DNA of 64,000 bases from Balneolaceae bacterium. GTDB taxonomy: Bacteria; Bacteroidota; Rhodothermia; Balneolales; Balneolaceae. Numbering within the stretch: the first letter of the stretch is position 1; each line of letters opens with the position of its first letter. The position numbers and the translations under genes were made by a program. The notes under the pieces were generated by a model, which saw only the letters and a list, made by a program, of their open reading frames with translations, was not told the origin of the DNA and did no database searches. Location: the NCBI GenBank assembly GCA_020832285.1, contig JAFIFB010000024.1, positions 62,001 to 126,000 of the forward strand, given 5' to 3'. This document shows positions 5,116-37,836 of this stretch, piece after piece.

Positions 5116-8100
5116 ATGAAAGTAGAGGGTCACCAAATCTGGATTACGCTGTTTCTGGCCGTTTTCATTGTAAGCGGATACCTTTACTACACGGTGCACA
5201 CAAATCAGATTCAACTTCAGGAACAGAGTATCAGGAGTTTCAGCCTTGCCAAAAATAATCTGATGAGCAGCTGGGAGAACTATAAAGTTCAATGTCAGTC
5301 AGATACAACACTCACACGCTCCATTTCGAAAGATGCAGACCTGAAGCAAGTGCTCAACTTTCTTCTCGATCAAATGCCTCCGGGAGATTTTTTTGATCTT
5401 ACCATTATTGCCGACAGTTCGGGAAAAATTATGATTGCCGAACCTGACATTCCTGTTGCCAAAATGCCTGTTGATGACAGTACAACAGCCGATGAAATCA
5501 AACTCGGTATTTTACAGTCAAATATGAACATCTCTACCGAGGATTACCAGGTATATCAGGCGCCGCTTACTCTGGAATGGGAAACAGATGATTGCATAAC
5601 CGAAGAAAATGAAGATGAAAATAGTATTAACAGCCAAAACGAAGAGGGAGTATCATCAGAAAGCCGGCAAATTATTCTCTACACAGCCCTCAGCCAGGAT
5701 GCATTAAATCAGGTACGCTGGCACATTCCATTCCTGACAGTTTATGTTTTACTAAGTTTGGTCATCTTGATAGTGGTTTCATATCCTATTATCCGGATTT
5801 TAGGGATGGGCCGCGGTGACAATTTCACAGGTGCACATGTCTATCAAACCGGACTTTCTATCATCCTGCTTTCTCTCTTTATCGGTTTTTCGATCTCTTA
5901 CTTTTCCAGCCGTACCGAAATTATAAAAAATCAGAAAAACGCCGTCCAATCGCTTTCCGATAAAATTGAGCAATTTCACAACGAGCAGATAAATTACTAC
6001 AGTGACCTGCTTACTGACTTTATGAAGTATGGAGCAGATGCCGTTCATACAGAAGATTTTCCATTCAAAGAGCTGATAAGTATTGGAAGGGATGGAAGGA
6101 TTTTAGATATATGGCTTTACGGTGAATCTGCTGCTGAACCGGATAGTTTTATACAGACTCTCCCCAACCTTGCCGAACGCCACTATTTCAGGCGTGCAGA
6201 TACTGAAAGCTTCTACCATGGCTCTCATTTTTCTTACTCCGATGGCAACTTTGAAGGAGTCATTAGTAAAAAAGTATCTCATCGCGAAAATCTTGCTGAT
6301 GATGATGTTTATATACAGGCTATCACATTCAGCTTTGATGATTTTGACCGGGCCGACTCTACCCATGTAACACGAACCATCTTTGAATCCATCAATTGTT
6401 TGGACATTCAATCCGGGATTGAATCCATCCAATTAAATAAAATTGGCCTTAAATATCTCATCATCAACAGGAATGGTGAGGTATATTATCAGTCTCCTTC
6501 CGTTAAAACCGCCACCTCTACCGTGCACGATGTAGTGAATCCGGCCCAGTGGAATGAGTTACAGGCATTGATGGCAAATAATCCAGAAACCAGCCAGCCG
6601 CTGGATTTACGACTCTCTTTTGAAGGACATTCATTTAATGCGTCTCTGCAGAAGCTGGCTGCAGAAAACCCGGCTATGAAAGAGGAATCCTGGCTTCTGG
6701 TTTTTGATGACCCCAACCTGATCGCATTTCGCAGCTATTCGGTGTTTATGTACTCGACTATTGGCTATTTTGTTATTCTGATCGTGTTTTTTGTGATCGG
6801 CCTCATTTTTTATCTGCTCCGGCCAAAACGACTTTATCTCTCTTTTCGCAGATTTAATGATTACCTGTTCAGGCCATCCTTTAAAAAAAGAAAGGAGTAT
6901 GTGATTCTGACCCTTATCATCTTTACTCACATACTCTTTTTTTGCATCATATTTTTAATGGACTTGCATCATTTCTGGTTGTTCATTCCACTTTTTGGAT
7001 TAACGATTACCTTCATCGCTCTCACCCGCCACATGCTGCTTTCAGGGTTTTTGAAAAATCAACGCTCATTTTCCGACTGGAAACTTCCTCTGGCTCTCGG
7101 TACTTTTTCACTGCTTATTACTTCTCTTCTTTTCCTGATGATCTTTTTTGGAATCACGTACACCTGGCTCACAATCGCTCTCATTATCATACAGCTGGCC
7201 TGGCTCTGGTTTCTGTTTTCATCGAAAGGTATTTTTTCATTCTCTTTTGTGAAAAATAAATCGGGATCTGTCATTAACCAACTGAGAGCATTCATCCGGA
7301 AACCGAAAGAACTCTATGCATTTGTCTTTGCATTCTGGGCTCTTTTGATCGGCATGATGGCTGGATATGCCATTCATCATTCTGCATTCCATTTCGAAGA
7401 TAAACTCTGGGAAATTGCAGTTGAACACACCACTGAAGAAGTTCAAGCACACAGCAGCTCAGACGGTTTACAATTTCTGCACAGAAACAGAAAACACAAA
7501 TTCTTAGACCATCTTGAGTATTGGCGAAGGCAATGGCTCTTCAATTATTCGGGAGTGGATTACCCGGTGATGGACCGGTACATCTACGCTGGTAGAGGTC
7601 AAATTTTCGATGCTTTCGATCATGATGGCCACACCCATGAGAATATTGACGGCCATGATCATGAAAAAGATTTCCTCGACAGAACTGTTATTATTCTCTC
7701 TTTTTTTGGAGGCTTTTTTCTGCTTTATCTGATCATCAAAAACCTTTCCCAGCGAATTTTTCTTACCGAGTACCACGATTTTATATCTGAGGATAACCCT
7801 GATCCTAAAGTAGAAAACCATACCTATATTCTGACATTAGATCATAAAAAAACTATGGTTTACCTGAAGGATGGTTTTCTGAAAAACAGAAAATACCATC
7901 TGTTAGATCTTTCTGCACAATCAGATCGGGAAAAAATTAAACTCTTTGAAAGCCGGGATTCAGTTGATGGCCTGCTGAATGATACCGACGGGCTTGTTTT
8001 GTTAAACGCAGACCGTGCCTTGATATCACCAGACACCATGCACAAGTTGACAGACCTGATTGCAGCCTCTATCAGGAGCAATAAGTTCTTGATACTTACC

Positions 8101-8865
8101 GGTTCAAAAAGTATGAAAGAGCTATCAGAGATAATTTCCGAAAAGAAAGATCAAGATCTTGAGAAGGCACTTTCCAACTGGCTGGATGTAATTTCCTCTT
8201 TCTTTACCACTATCATTCCCATAAATCATGGTTTAAAAATACCCTCAGAAACTCTTCAATCCAGTAAAAATAAACTGATTAACAAACTAAAAACCGAAAC
8301 TCAGTTTGGCCCACATACCGAAAAACTGACTGATTTACTTGAACAGATTATCAACAGAACTGGTACAGAGCGGTTCACAAAAAAAGAGTATGAGGCTTTT
8401 ATTTTACGTGTTCAGAGGCACAATAAAACGTTCTATCAAAATATTTGGGATCAACTCACTTTTCGCGAAAAACGTATGGTTCATAATTTTGCCAGGGAGG
8501 GATTTATAAATTATTCCAATATAGACGTACTCACCGAACTCCTGCAGAAAGGAATATTCAGGGCAGATAAAGAGTCTGAAGAGATGCGTCTTTTTAATCT
8601 CAGTTTCTGCAATTTTGCCACCCAGTCGGTTACCCAGGAGCTTGCCAGGTTGTTTAATAAAGACAGAAAACAGAATGGAAATGTGAGTCATATGAGAAAT
8701 GCGCTGCTCACCATCATTTTTCTAACCATACTTGCAATCAGCCTATTTGCCCCCGATCTCCCTGAGCGGTATATCGGCGCAATCAGCGGCGGGCTTGCAC
8801 TGATCAGTTCACTGGCGTCTGTTGCTGGTAAACTTTCATTGAACCTTCCTTTCTTTGAAAAATAA
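5116..8865 (+). CDS. Large multi-pass membrane protein with extracytoplasmic domains and a cytoplasmic winged-helix-like tail
   Basis: I do not recognise this 1249-residue protein. Seen: an N-terminal helix (residues about 8-26), a first outer domain (27-200), two helices (about 203-226 and 242-262), a second, Cache-sized outer domain (about 265-540), then a block of about seven helices (545-760). Next comes another outer segment with a histidine-rich stretch (about 834-850, several H-D/H-E pairs), one more helix (about 855-875), and a cytoplasmic region of about 310 residues. That region has an alternating strand/helix pattern with 'DGLVLLNADR' and 'FLILTGSKS' (about 900-1090), then 'LTFREKRMVHNFAREGFINY...LLQKGIF' (about 1110-1150), which resembles the winged helix that follows the ATPase in STAND/AAA-type proteins. 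No Walker A loop is visible. Two C-terminal helices finish it. The architecture suggests a sensor; this is inference. Confidence 0.8.
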   Translation: MKVEGHQIWITLFLAVFIVSGYLYYTVHTNQIQLQEQSIRSFSLAKNNLMSSWENYKVQCQSDTTLTRSISKDADLKQVLNFLLDQMPPGDFFDLTIIADSSGKIMIAEPDIPVAKMPVDDSTTADEIKLGILQSNMNISTEDYQVYQAPLTLEWETDDCITEENEDENSINSQNEEGVSSESRQIILYTALSQDALNQVRWHIPFLTVYVLLSLVILIVVSYPIIRILGMGRGDNFTGAHVYQTGLSIILLSLFIGFSISYFSSRTEIIKNQKNAVQSLSDKIEQFHNEQINYYSDLLTDFMKYGADAVHTEDFPFKELISIGRDGRILDIWLYGESAAEPDSFIQTLPNLAERHYFRRADTESFYHGSHFSYSDGNFEGVISKKVSHRENLADDDVYIQAITFSFDDFDRADSTHVTRTIFESINCLDIQSGIESIQLNKIGLKYLIINRNGEVYYQSPSVKTATSTVHDVVNPAQWNELQALMANNPETSQPLDLRLSFEGHSFNASLQKLAAENPAMKEESWLLVFDDPNLIAFRSYSVFMYSTIGYFVILIVFFVIGLIFYLLRPKRLYLSFRRFNDYLFRPSFKKRKEYVILTLIIFTHILFFCIIFLMDLHHFWLFIPLFGLTITFIALTRHMLLSGFLKNQRSFSDWKLPLALGTFSLLITSLLFLMIFFGITYTWLTIALIIIQLAWLWFLFSSKGIFSFSFVKNKSGSVINQLRAFIRKPKELYAFVFAFWALLIGMMAGYAIHHSAFHFEDKLWEIAVEHTTEEVQAHSSSDGLQFLHRNRKHKFLDHLEYWRRQWLFNYSGVDYPVMDRYIYAGRGQIFDAFDHDGHTHENIDGHDHEKDFLDRTVIILSFFGGFFLLYLIIKNLSQRIFLTEYHDFISEDNPDPKVENHTYILTLDHKKTMVYLKDGFLKNRKYHLLDLSAQSDREKIKLFESRDSVDGLLNDTDGLVLLNADRALISPDTMHKLTDLIAASIRSNKFLILTGSKSMKELSEIISEKKDQDLEKALSNWLDVISSFFTTIIPINHGLKIPSETLQSSKNKLINKLKTETQFGPHTEKLTDLLEQIINRTGTERFTKKEYEAFILRVQRHNKTFYQNIWDQLTFREKRMVHNFAREGFINYSNIDVLTELLQKGIFRADKESEEMRLFNLSFCNFATQSVTQELARLFNKDRKQNGNVSHMRNALLTIIFLTILAISLFAPDLPERYIGAISGGLALISSLASVAGKLSLNLPFFEK

Positions 8866-8923: not shown

Positions 8924-9322
8924 ATGCCCCAAAAACCGGCCCCACACCGACGAAAAAGGAAAGAATCCGATCTTTCAGGTGATTATTTCATTCTTTTTAA
9001 TCTCCGGCACTTTCTGTTAATTTTCCTCCACTTTTTAATCATTATTCCACTTGTCACCGGATGCTACCATTACCGGGTGATTGCTCCAGATCCCGAACCA
9101 GCCACTGAATATGAAAAGCGAACCGTTCACTCACTGTTCTGGGGACTGATGCAGGCCAGGGATATCTCTGCCGATGATTGCCTCAGTAATGCTCTCGATG
9201 AAGTACGGATAACCACCAATCTGGGCTACTCGATTGTTTCTGTAGCTACGCTTGGAATATGGATGCCGATGGATATGAGGTGGCGATGCGCCAAGGAGCC
9301 TCTGATTGATGGTGAAATATAA
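8924..9322 (+). CDS. Bor-like lipoprotein
   Basis: A 132-residue protein with a basic N-terminus, a hydrophobic segment (about residues 28-45) and a lipobox 'LVTG-C' near residue 47, so it should be a lipoprotein. The mature part follows the pattern of the phage lambda Bor/Iss family: 'HSLFWGL', an 'ADDCLSNALDEVRI' helix, 'LGYSIVSVATLGIWMPMDMRWRCA'. Bor proteins are outer-membrane lipoproteins linked to serum resistance in E. coli. In environmental bacteria the role is unknown. The N-terminal extension before the hydrophobic core is long for a signal peptide, and no better internal Met is available. The next gene follows after 17 bases, so the two are probably co-transcribed. Confidence 0.7.
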   Translation: MPQKPAPHRRKRKESDLSGDYFILFNLRHFLLIFLHFLIIIPLVTGCYHYRVIAPDPEPATEYEKRTVHSLFWGLMQARDISADDCLSNALDEVRITTNLGYSIVSVATLGIWMPMDMRWRCAKEPLIDGEI

Positions 9323-9339: not shown

Positions 9340-10866
9340 ATGCCCAAAGAACTGAAAGCAAGGATTGTAAAAAAATCATCCCGTAACTGGACCAACAAAC
9401 ACGAAAATTTCACTCAGCAGGTTGCCGGACTCTATGATGTATGGAATCCCTCCGGATCGGCACACCGCCAGATTGAAGCTTATAATGCCACCACCCAGGC
9501 TCTTTGTGAATTCATCGGCAGGGCAGCAAAAAAAGGTGATCGCATTCGGGCATTGGGAAGTGCATGGTCAATCTCCAATGCCGCTGCAACTGACGGCAGA
9601 CTTGTCAACACCAAACCGCTAAATCGTCTTTTTCGTGTTACCGGATCAAGTATTTCTGATGACTATAATGGCGATCCTGATAACCTCCTGTTTGTACAGT
9701 GCGGGGTTTCAATCGGTGAACTAAATCGTTTCCTTCGTCAGCAGGGAAAATCGCTTAAAACCTCCGGTGCCAGTAACGGTCAAACAATAGCTGGTGCACT
9801 CTCAACCGGAACTCACGGTTCAGCTATTGATACTGGTGCGATTCAGGACTTTGTGAAAGGATTGCATCTCATCACAGGACCAAACCGCCATGTATGGCTC
9901 GAGCGATCTTCCGATCCGGTAACATCTCCACAGCTTGCAGAACGCCTCGGGGCAGAAGTGATACGGGATGACGATACATTCAACGCTGCTCTTGTCTGCT
10001 TTGGAAGTTTCGGTATCATTCACGGTGTTTTAATCGAAACTGAAGAGCTTTTCTTGCTTGAAGCAAACCGGATAAAATTGCCTTTTGATGATGACCTTCA
10101 ACATGTGATACAGACACTTGATTTTGGCCGGATTACACTGCCTGAGCCGGAACAAAGACCGTATCACTTCGAGGTCGTGATTAATCCACACGCAAAAGAC
10201 GGACAGGCGTTCAGTACAGTGATGTATAAAAAACCTTTTACGCAGCAAGCCGATAACCGGCGAAAGTCCTCCGGAGGGTTTCAGCCGGGAGATGATTTTC
10301 TCTGTGTGATCGGTACACTTCTGGATATTGCTCCAGCCGCTATACCTGCAGCCGTTAACAACCTTATTGCATCACAGTATCAGGAATACTCAGGTCGAAT
10401 CGGTACACTCGGAGATATTTTTTCGTCTACAAGCATTCGTGGTAAAGCAACAGGAGCAGCGATGGGCGTTCCACTCGATGAAGCCGGGCGTGCTCTGAAT
10501 ATCATTCTTGAAATTCACAAAAGAAGCCGAAACTTTCCCGGTGTAATTGCCCTCAGATATGTTAAGAAATCGGATGCAGTGCTGGCATTCACCCGCTTCT
10601 CACCTACTTGTATAATCGACCTGGATGCGGTTGACAATCGAACAGCAAAAAACTTTTCCAGAGGTGTGTGGCGTGCATTTAATGAGCGAAACATTCCGTA
10701 CACTCTGCACTGGGGAAAGGCCAATGAACTGACTGCCGAAAGTGTACGAACCATATACGGCGAAGACCTCGAAGCCTGGCTGAAGATACGCCGCAGCCTG
10801 CTGGAGGAAGAACTCCGCAATACCTTTTCAAGCCCGTTTACGGATCAGTGCGGTTTATCCGAATGA
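9340..10866 (+). CDS. FAD-linked oxidoreductase (aldonolactone oxidase-like)
   Basis: A 508-residue flavoprotein of the PCMH/FAD_binding_4 fold. The FAD-binding part shows 'GDRIRALGSAWSISNAAATDG', 'VQCGVSIGELNRFLRQQGKSL', 'ASNGQTIAGALSTGTHGS' and 'CFGSFGIIHGVLIETEELF', the order found in L-gulonolactone, D-arabinono-1,4-lactone and related sugar-lactone oxidases. The C-terminal part ends with 'YTLHWGKANEL', where the D-arabinono-lactone oxidase domain usually has an HWGK motif. No signal peptide is evident, so it is likely cytoplasmic. The substrate cannot be read from sequence. It probably shares an operon with the Bor-like lipoprotein. Confidence 0.82.
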   Translation: MPKELKARIVKKSSRNWTNKHENFTQQVAGLYDVWNPSGSAHRQIEAYNATTQALCEFIGRAAKKGDRIRALGSAWSISNAAATDGRLVNTKPLNRLFRVTGSSISDDYNGDPDNLLFVQCGVSIGELNRFLRQQGKSLKTSGASNGQTIAGALSTGTHGSAIDTGAIQDFVKGLHLITGPNRHVWLERSSDPVTSPQLAERLGAEVIRDDDTFNAALVCFGSFGIIHGVLIETEELFLLEANRIKLPFDDDLQHVIQTLDFGRITLPEPEQRPYHFEVVINPHAKDGQAFSTVMYKKPFTQQADNRRKSSGGFQPGDDFLCVIGTLLDIAPAAIPAAVNNLIASQYQEYSGRIGTLGDIFSSTSIRGKATGAAMGVPLDEAGRALNIILEIHKRSRNFPGVIALRYVKKSDAVLAFTRFSPTCIIDLDAVDNRTAKNFSRGVWRAFNERNIPYTLHWGKANELTAESVRTIYGEDLEAWLKIRRSLLEEELRNTFSSPFTDQCGLSE

Positions 10867-11399
10867 TCCAGAAGCGCTGCATCTGAGACAAGCGAAGAAT
10901 TTTTATTAAGTTGATGAAAGCTTAAAAATGAACCGCCAGGAACTGTCTGATCATTGATCTGCACGCCCATCCGAAACTAACTCAACCTCCGAAAAACCTA
11001 AAAAATCGTCTCAATGGTTCGTAAAGAACGATTTGGAGAGCCATACACTGCTCTATTAAAAAACTCTAATCCATCTGCCTGTAACAAGCTTATTAGTCAG
11101 GCATCCTATGTGTACATACTACGTTAAGCGTTTTGAGAATTATTTTATAAACCAGACTATTTTTAACTGCACATCATCCCGTATACAAACATTCACCACT
11201 AATGTTAAGTCAAATCAAATTTAATCGGAGAGTCATCGAACAATTCGGTCCGGGATCATCCCAATCATTGTATTTGGCTCATTTTTCGGAAATTGGTCCA
11301 ATGATCTACCCGTCGCTTTATTGTTGATACGACACTAAAATTTATTTCCGATTCCTCTGTATATCATATTAATTAATTAAAAGTATAGCCTGGAAGTTT
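10867..11399. other. Intergenic region carrying a MITE-like copy
   Basis: This 533-base gap holds the hairpin element at 11201-11336. Between 10950 and 11030 one frame reads a short 'IDLHAHP' string, a motif seen at the start of metal-dependent dipeptidases, but the frame closes within 25 codons and nothing else supports a gene. The last 60 bases before 11400 are very AT-rich and may hold the promoter of the kinase gene. Confidence 0.5.
11201..11336. repeat. MITE-like hairpin element, copy 2
   Basis: Left end TA|ATGTTAAGTCAA, right end TTGATACGACAC|TA, with TA on both sides. The interior keeps 'gagagtcatcg', 'cgggatcatcccaatcat' and 'gatctacccgtcg' in the same order as copy 1, but is more diverged than the copy 1/copy 3 pair. 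Confidence 0.75.
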
Positions 11400-15609: not shown

Positions 15610-15961
15610 ATCTGCCTTCTACGGAACCTCAGACTAAAGTTCAGGTAATTCCTTAGACTAAAGTTCAGGTAATTCCTTAGACTTGCTGTTTTCTCGTTTC
15701 TTTTTAAAAAAGTTAAGACTATCATTCGTTTAAAAAAGAAAACATATTCGTACTTTCTGTGCGTCCATTCAAAAAAAATGGCTAAACTTATTTATTTCAC
15801 AAACTAATAGTTGACTGATTTTATTGCTATCTACATAAGTAAGAACTTTCAAAAAAAGCTAAAAAATTTATTCAATGTTTTGTCATACTTAGCGCCCCGT
15901 GCGTTAGCGATTCCAATTTATTGAATTAAACAGGTTATTTTAATTCAGATATTTAACCCTG
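15610..15961. other. Intergenic region with a short tandem repeat
   Basis: This 352-base gap starts with the tandem repeat at 15631-15683 and is otherwise AT-rich (15700-15960), with several A-runs. It probably holds the promoter of the outer-membrane protein gene at 15962, but no consensus was clear enough to mark. Confidence 0.4.
15631..15683. repeat. 24-base tandem repeat, two copies and a remnant
   Basis: The unit AGACTAAAGTTCAGGTAATT plus CCTT is present at 15631 and again at 15655, identical, with the first five bases of a third at 15679. It lies 22 bases after the gluconokinase stop. Confidence 0.85.
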
Positions 15962-35048: not shown

Positions 35049-35660
35049 AATGAAAACCCGAACAATTCCGAACCTTTTGCGGGCTACAATATCAAATTCG
35101 GGCCACATGTTAGTTACACACAATATATCAACACAAGAACCGGCATTTGGGCAGATTTTCAGGGACATCTTAACCGGATATCTCACAGTAAATATGTCAA
35201 TCAAAGTGTAATCTATTGATGTGTATTATTTTAACATCCAAATTTGGGATCTTCAAATAAAACACTCATTTTTTCAGATTATAGCTTAGCCGGAAACGCT
35301 GACTTTGGATTTGCCGGAGGAGGCATAAAAACTGTCTTCAACCTTTTTCAAACATTCAACATTGGAGACATTGTACTCTTTCCACAGATAGGAATATATT
35401 CAAATTTAACCGGTTTTTCCGATCAGCGGTTAAACGGTTACGGTTATAATACTCATGTACAAAACAGCTCAAATATTTCTAACAGTGCAGAGCTTCAGAA
35501 TTGGCATTATAATACCGGAATCTCACTTGGATTTCCAGTATCTGTTCTCCGTGACAGATCATTCAGCGTGGCTTTGGAACCCTCCTACAAAGTTAACATT
35601 GAAAACAATGAATCTCATTCTGCCAGCCGCTTTGAATTAAAGCTGCGATTCGGTTTCTGA
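35049..35660 (+). pseudogene. Decayed outer-membrane beta-barrel protein gene
   Basis: In one frame, 'NENPNNSEPFAGYNIKFGPHVSYTQY' (35049 on), 'TRTGIWADFQGHLNRISHSKY' and 'VNQSVIY' run to TGA at 35217, then TAA at 35232, and the same frame resumes from 35244 (TTG) with 'SDYSLAGNADFGFAGGGIKTVF', 'VLFPQIGIYSNLTGF', 'YNTGISLGFPVSVLRDRSFSVALEPSYKVNI' and ends 'SRFELKLRFGF' with the terminal phenylalanine usual for barrel proteins. The alternating pattern on both sides of the stops suggests one gene broken by nonsense changes, now without an N-terminus or signal peptide. The second half could still be read as a 138-residue frame but would not be exported. Confidence 0.55.
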
Positions 35661-37101: not shown

Positions 37102-37836
37102 GACTGAATAACTGTAACCGGCTGTTCTCTCTATTGGTCAGTCCGACTCTTTACCCAAGGACTTATAGTAAAAAAGTACCGCTCTTTGAAAGGCCTGTTA
37201 ATTAAAGGATCTACTGTAATTACAGTAGGTAAGTTGTTATTACAGACCCTGAATCCTCCTCTTGCCTGTCCCGCCCGTTTCGAGCTGCTCCCCCCCTGAA
37301 TGAATTCCGCCACGGTTTTTTTCCGGATTCCAGATTCCAGTGAAAACCCCTCGAAATTGTGTGTTGCTTTTTCAAAACTATTCGCCTCGGGTTTTTTTAT
37401 GTTACATTTTATCCCAGGGCGTCGTTCGCGATGCTCACATTACCCTGGGCTCTGTGATGGCGCCATTACAGGGCTTGACAAGCACCTCCCTTGTCAGTCA
37501 TTAAATCAAATACATGTCGTGTTTTTGATTAACTTTTTTAATCTCAAATTGAGTCCGTTTCGAAATACTAAACAATCGTGAAGGGAATTTCAGTTATCTC
37601 AAAAATATCTTCCCGAAAAATTTCCTGTGGAACTTAATTTATTTACCGACTCTTAATCAGAGAACGCTATCCCTAACCTGGCGAAGCCAGAACCAAAAAA
37701 TTTGAATATGTTAAGCTATCAGCATTTTTTCAGCAACGATCATCTGACGGCTGATAGCTGATAGCTTTCCTTCCACTTTCACAAAGCGTTTAAAAGTTTT
37801 CTTGCCAGTTTTTGGCCGGAATTAAAATCTAAGACA
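37102..37836. other. Convergent intergenic region with palindromes
   Basis: 735 bases between the 3' ends of trmB and the TonB receptor gene. It holds a perfect 18-base palindrome (37211-37228), an inverted pair 'cccagggcgtcg'/'accctgggct' near 37411-37452, and a hairpin 'agctatcagc'/'gctgatagct' (37714-37723 with 37750-37759) that may end the receptor transcript on the minus strand. No gene is supported on either strand. Confidence 0.55.
37211..37228. repeat. Perfect 18-base palindrome
   Basis: CTACTGTAATTACAGTAG equals its own reverse complement. It could be an operator, but both flanking genes end here, so no promoter is expected nearby. Confidence 0.8.

Follow-up and report, generated by a model that had tools for sequence, protein, structure and literature searches.

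The gene at positions 5116-8865 of the window (the whole 64,000-nucleotide stretch of Balneolaceae DNA analysed here) encodes a membrane protein that combines a periplasmic double Cache (dCache) domain with a cytoplasmic AAA+/STAND-type P-loop domain in which the Walker A motif has been lost. The protein is interpreted as an inner-membrane, Cache-gated receptor with an inactive STAND module that would recruit or license a partner enzyme, and a probability of about one half is assigned to this interpretation. What is new is the position of such a receptor gene beside exchangeable enzymes, most of which are devoid of signal peptides.

Gene, membrane topology and a probable recombined core

The open reading frame can be regarded as a gene and not a product of chance, because open full-length homologues at 79%, 54%, and 41% identity are found in three related genomes and the dN/dS of the whole gene is 0.17 with the 79% homologue as reference. 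Purifying selection therefore acts on it. The genome that holds the 41% homologue also contains a second, more distant copy of 1551 aa, the similarity of which is located at the C-terminus. Hydropathy and the distribution of basic residues place 12 transmembrane (TM) segments in the protein, with the basic loops inside. Along the hydropathy profile, TM1 is followed by a first outer domain (residues 27-203), TM2 and TM3, a second outer domain (264-548), TM4-9, a His-rich outer loop (754-856), TM10, a cytoplasmic region (876-1196), and finally TM11 and TM12, as listed in Table 1. This topology bears out the domain order that had been proposed in a sequence-only reading of the same DNA. The run of TM segments placed there after the second outer domain and before the His-rich loop is indeed present, although it consists of six segments instead of about seven. 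In the model, the first outer domain is composed of a long helix followed by a small mixed alpha/beta domain, and at a guess it is single-Cache-like. The loop at residues 754-856 is His-rich in the window clade; its counterpart in the Pedobacter/Mucilaginibacter clade is an outer segment of greater length. As a whole, the architecture is well supported.

Table 1. Features of the receptor gene and of the two genes downstream of it in the window.
Feature	Position	Strand	Residues	Basis or remark
Whole gene	5116..8865	+	1-1249	ATG start, one open frame; 12 predicted TM segments
Outer (periplasmic) domain 1	5194..5724	+	27-203	Topology; model secondary structure
Stretch seemingly replaced by recombination relative to closest homologue	5880..8680	+		DNA identity, dS
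Outer domain 2, double Cache (dCache) sensor fold	5902..6750	+	263-545	Model, fold match, family profiles
Six-TM bundle	6760..7374	+	549-753	Hydropathy, positive-inside count
His-rich outer loop	7375..7683	+	754-856	Sequence, topology
Degenerate AAA+/STAND P-loop domain	7801..8226	+	896-1037	Model, fold match, motif scan
Winged-helix-like region	8401..8655	+	1096-1180	Predicted secondary structure, conservation, weak profile matches
C-terminal TM hairpin	8704..8829	+	1197-1238	Topology; conserved family-wide
Bor-like lipoprotein	8924..9322	+		Lambda_Bor; next gene downstream, 58-base gap
FAD-linked oxidase (ALO type), candidate partner	9340..10866	+		FAD_binding_4, ALO; no signal peptide at N-terminus

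The earlier statement that this order fits no known family also held. Searches with the window protein against Pfam, NCBIfam, PADLOC, and PDB sequences returned nothing above the cut-off, with no Pfam family near it, and profile-based searches of PDB sequences gave nothing useful. A Pfam match to PARP_reg (E 0.028) was dismissed as chance. No histidine kinase or MCP output domain was matched by Pfam in the protein, where an AAA+ fold is found instead.

Comparison with the closest homologue (L006, genome G017) demonstrates that the gene is not uniformly diverged. From about 5880 to 8680, a stretch that runs from the dCache domain through the winged helix, DNA identity is 67-83%, whereas it is mostly 90-98% between 2878 and about 5880, 86-97% from about 8680 on, and 93% over the 10 kb after the gene. 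The dS is 0.14 in the first outer domain and 0.8-1.9 across the core, with a low dN/dS. Since the core of low identity lies between more similar flanks, and its high dS is accompanied by a low dN/dS, the sequence comparison suggests that import of a diverged allele by recombination would explain the core better than rapid change in place. Elsewhere in the window, four short stretches (approximately 11226-11293, 15791-15885, 35170-35279, and 37346-37640) match several to many contigs of G017 and are probably dispersed repeats.

Cache domain and decay of the NTPase module

The second outer domain was analyzed in an AlphaFold2 model of residues 1-580 (pLDDT 68, pTM 0.63), for which the window sequence aligned with the surveyed relatives served as input. 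Over residues ~259-550 the model matches the folds of PctD (Z 14.8), PctA (14.3), and a sensor kinase domain (14.1), so that the Cache-like fold predicted for residues 265-540 is recovered as that of dCache ligand-binding domains. Two PAS-like lobes lie behind a long helix, between TM helices. The dCache_1 profile matches 19 of the 31 aligned sequences (best E 1e-14) and gives no match to the window protein itself.

For the cytoplasmic part, the model of residues 850-1249, likewise built from the window sequence aligned with relatives, is of modest confidence (pLDDT 62, pTM 0.47). All 50 of the 50 matches listed in the fold search are AAA+ proteins. Hda is matched with Z 11.6 and rmsd 2.8 over 119 aligned residues, corresponding to window residues 896-1037, and ORC subunits and Avs4 are also listed by Foldseek. 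Among the profile matches of the relatives, nSTAND3 is best (E 2.8e-4), accompanied by nSTAND1, NB-ARC, and archaeal ATPase. Strands resembling Walker B and sensor 1 are kept in the domain and Walker A is lost: where an active motif reads GxxxxGK[ST], the window protein has TLDHKKTM, at a position which is approximate because the window clade was aligned there at about 18-20% identity. The segment after the NTPase is modelled as helix-helix-helix-strand-strand-helix, a conserved pattern whose predicted order would fit a winged helix. Its winged-helix profile match is weak, no fold match covers it on its own, and the segment is termed winged-helix-like. It is the best-conserved region of the whole family, with a mean column identity of 0.58 in the family alignment, compared with 0.37 for the AAA region and 0.31 for dCache. 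Measured against the 79% homologue, dN/dS is 0.06 for this region and 0.16 for the AAA+/STAND domain in the window clade. What had been claimed for this part from the sequence is thus largely upheld. The Walker A loop is absent by motif scan, the P-loop fold emerges in the AAA+ match, and the description of a degenerate NTPase agrees with relatives in which a partial or intact motif displays the decay. Within residues 890-1190, the P-loop half of the prediction was recovered as a fold, and the winged-helix half is suggested by predicted secondary structure, conserved pattern, and weak profile matches. The partner enzymes and the recombined core described here had not been anticipated in that reading.

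A winged helix might also bind DNA, in which case the protein would regulate transcription from the membrane as a one-component system, like CadC or ToxR, and the ORC rows near the top of the Foldseek result, which represent DNA-binding AAA+ plus winged helix, are compatible with such a role. The net charge of the winged helix, however, is -2 to 0 in the window clade, as it is in the three sequences of the patatin/DUF2235 clade for which it was counted, and the region runs on into the TM hairpin. Regulation of this type is considered very improbable.

The decay of the NTPase can be followed stepwise among the relatives. Walker A was scanned in the 31 relatives obtained from the survey with a Pedobacter-clade alignment. 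A complete motif, GPPGSGKT, was found in one (L092). The lysine is kept and the Ser/Thr gone in 26, mostly as GxPGSGKL, one has GLPGSNKL (L069), and the lysine is lost in three (GLPGSSIL, GPPGASVI, and GSPGANTL); Ser/Thr is missing in 30 of the 31. In the window clade, TLDHKKTM or a similar sequence occupies the position and the motif is gone. In genome G202 most of the NTPase domain has been deleted, and the winged helix and the TM hairpin are retained. Relatives within Bacteroidota span all stages: intact, GxPGSGKL, lysine lost, motif gone, and domain deleted. Loss of the lysine falls on several branches of the family tree, a quick tree with several long branches on which counts of changes are approximate. 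We read the NTPase module as structural, with catalysis no longer needed, and the winged helix as a conserved contact surface. As the NTP site is lost, the module would act as a structural switch and docking platform, and not as an ATPase. An alternative is that the NTPase continues to act as a switch with nucleotide bound at an unusual site, as might be expected from the relative with the complete motif and from the many that keep GxPGSGK including the lysine. The near-universal absence of Ser/Thr, the repeated loss of lysine, the disappearance of the motif in the window clade, and the deletion in G202 argue against such a switch, which is thought improbable. In two genomes, apparent remnants of the C-terminal TM hairpin occur without the rest of the gene (L056 7214-7513; L055 6997-7158). 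The remnant in L056 is directly followed by an amidase gene, and GH19 and phosphoesterase genes belong to the same run.

Neighbouring genes and candidate partner enzymes

The neighbourhoods of homologues were checked in 36 loci with 528 ORFs, as the sequence-only reading had proposed. A patatin phospholipase is encoded in 9 of them, each time by the gene directly upstream (position -1) in the same orientation; the neighbourhoods contain no patatin at any other place, and other exchangeable enzymes are found at other loci. This tight linkage, in a quarter of the sampled loci, spans several lineages (Pedobacter, Mucilaginibacter, and Hufsiella). The single patatin tested resembles PADLOC phospholipase effector models, which we take to be those of CBASS effectors. 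A DUF2235 (Tle1-like) lipase adjoins the gene in G046 and in Pedobacter sp. SYSU D00535. The remaining enzymes, adjacent or in the same run, are GH19, amidase_2, DUF5675, calcineurin-like phosphoesterase, haem peroxidase, M19 dipeptidases, papain, and caspase. With coarse labels on the quick tree, the type of partner switches at least 11 times. Signal-peptide-like N-termini are mostly absent from the inspected neighbour enzymes, so that the partners would be located on the same side as the NTPase/winged-helix module; an exception is one M19 protein of L092, the N-terminus of which resembles a Tat signal.

In the window, the receptor gene is preceded by Mrp-type antiporter genes. No lipase stands beside the gene in the window clade; the oxidase is the sole enzyme there, and even this is missing next to the 54% homologue in G013. 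In Mucilaginibacter sp. JRF, a comparable Bor-oxidase pair and the homologue are about 2 kb apart. The FAD oxidase occurs in 10 of 385 genomes, 2 of which hold the receptor gene. Owing to this weak linkage, with only two genomes phylum-wide that have both genes, the oxidase is treated as a candidate and not as an established partner. Without the receptor, the oxidase is also present, alone or paired with Bor, near proteins that, judging from their sequence starts, are patatin-like (L104), SIR2-like and hydrolase-like (L107), and M19-like (L103). An unnamed membrane protein of approximately 340-415 aa recurs near the receptor gene in 8 of the 36 loci, usually 3-5 genes upstream of it (for example L024 3328-4572, L050 4659-5843, and L092 5205-6221), as well as near the enzymes of L056; those tested match no Pfam family above the cut-off. 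In 9 of the 36 loci, among them L024 (2465-3229), L058, L060, L068, L070, L080, L083, and L091, the opposite strand encodes a PAS-LuxR protein, a candidate regulator of the cluster, next to the receptor gene or within a few genes of it.

In the proposed process, the periplasmic dCache domain, together with the other outer domain and the His-rich loop, would bind a signal, which the 12-TM core would relay to the cytoplasmic module formed by the decayed STAND-type AAA+ domain, the winged helix, and the TM hairpin. The conserved face of the winged helix would bind a cytosolic enzyme and subsequently release, recruit, or activate it. Such an enzyme could be encoded next door or elsewhere, being a phospholipase in many relatives and perhaps the FAD-linked oxidase in the window. 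Its attack on lipids, the cell wall, or redox balance would damage the envelope, comparable to the outcome of a conflict or altruistic-death system. Several points weigh against this reading, among them the missing lipase in the window clade and the modest confidence of the C-terminal model. In about half of the relatives the apparent operon contains no enzyme, indicating that a partner in cis is not needed; as the gene is solitary in many genomes, its partner may lie at another place in the genome, or the protein may have a wider role. Moreover, many of the adjacent peptidoglycan enzymes would need export to reach their target, which the model leaves unexplained. A broader proposal, in which a previously undescribed class of conflict or self-recognition receptors licenses interchangeable killing enzymes by means of a transmembrane Cache sensor and an ATP-free pseudo-STAND module, and in which strains exchange alleles of the sensing core by recombination, is put forward tentatively and is rather doubtful.

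The main rival is an immunity-like restraint or tether, in which the inactive STAND module would hold export-bound enzymes, for example those of a contractile injection system, inactive at the membrane until they are loaded. At least two patatin loci (L058 and L080) contain genes for eCIS_core-OmpA proteins a few genes upstream, and a similar N-terminus occurs in L070. The peptidoglycan-lytic and lipolytic neighbours without signal peptides, and the direct contact of partner genes with the receptor gene, as for immunity genes, point in the same direction. Restraint would hardly call for a dCache sensor and 12 TM segments, however, and one conserved winged helix serves many unrelated enzymes, whereas immunity proteins usually diverge with their toxin. 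Restraint is accordingly judged improbable. A receptor for envelope housekeeping or signalling, with no role in conflict and with neighbour enzymes that are coincidental or metabolic, would agree with the solitary half of the loci, with the antiporter genes that precede the window gene, and with the single relative (P0008) for which tblastn in plasmid and phage collections gave no match. It is nevertheless regarded as unlikely. The gene is patchy, with 4 holders among 98 near relatives and, phylum-wide, 6 strong holders in 394 genomes, and the decayed remnants in two genomes, the strict patatin linkage, and the recombined core are unlike housekeeping genes. Nine full-length holders were found among 251 genomes in the family of genome G216. 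It should be noted that the query of the locus survey, the Pedobacter-clade alignment, favours relatives that keep the KLYQMG or HFEY motifs and leaves out the window clade.

Comparison with known systems

STAND proteins are bacterial kin of plant and animal immune receptors and have been studied as ATP-driven switches for intracellular sensing. Like Avs and the nSTAND1/nSTAND3 NTPases, the window protein has a P-loop AAA+ fold followed by a winged-helix-like region; unlike them, it has neither a catalytic motif nor a C-terminal repeat sensor, is embedded in the membrane, and senses, on the preferred reading, from outside. With the dCache chemoreceptors and histidine kinases (PctA, PctD, and DctB) it shares a periplasmic double Cache between TM helices, but kinase, MCP, and cyclase outputs are absent and the NTPase-like module takes the place of the output.

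The nearest precedent is the iSTAND proteins of MoxR-vWA ternary conflict systems, in which an inactive STAND is the constant component and is proposed to coordinate sensing with variable effectors, a subset being thought membrane-proximal (Kaur et al. 2020, PMC7159879). The principle of an inactive STAND coordinating conflict systems is hence not new (PMC7159879). By the published description, an inactive STAND-like domain would be common to both; in the window protein the inactive domain sits inside a 12-TM protein with a dCache sensor, and no N-terminal effector-associated domain was detected. No MoxR or vWA was found by Pfam among the window neighbours, nor any MoxR motif by regular expression in 525 ORFs of the homologous loci. 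The open-access literature on Cache-STAND or phospholipase-STAND membrane proteins yielded only the iSTAND precedent. Within the reach of these searches, an inactive STAND protein that is embedded in the membrane, carries a Cache sensor, and has no MoxR-vWA pair beside it is thus undescribed.

The patatin partner of the relatives, through its match to the PADLOC models, also invites comparison with CBASS-type phospholipase effectors. Here the membrane sensor stands in the position of the cyclase, and no CD-NTase cyclase family was recognised among the genes scanned in the patatin operon of L024. Stepwise decay of the NTPase up to its deletion, alongside the most conserved winged helix, provides a natural series on what the NTPase is for, and on whether a winged helix alone can serve as an output surface. 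If the preferred reading is true, an extracellular small-molecule sensor would be linked to phospholipase-type effectors without the second messenger.
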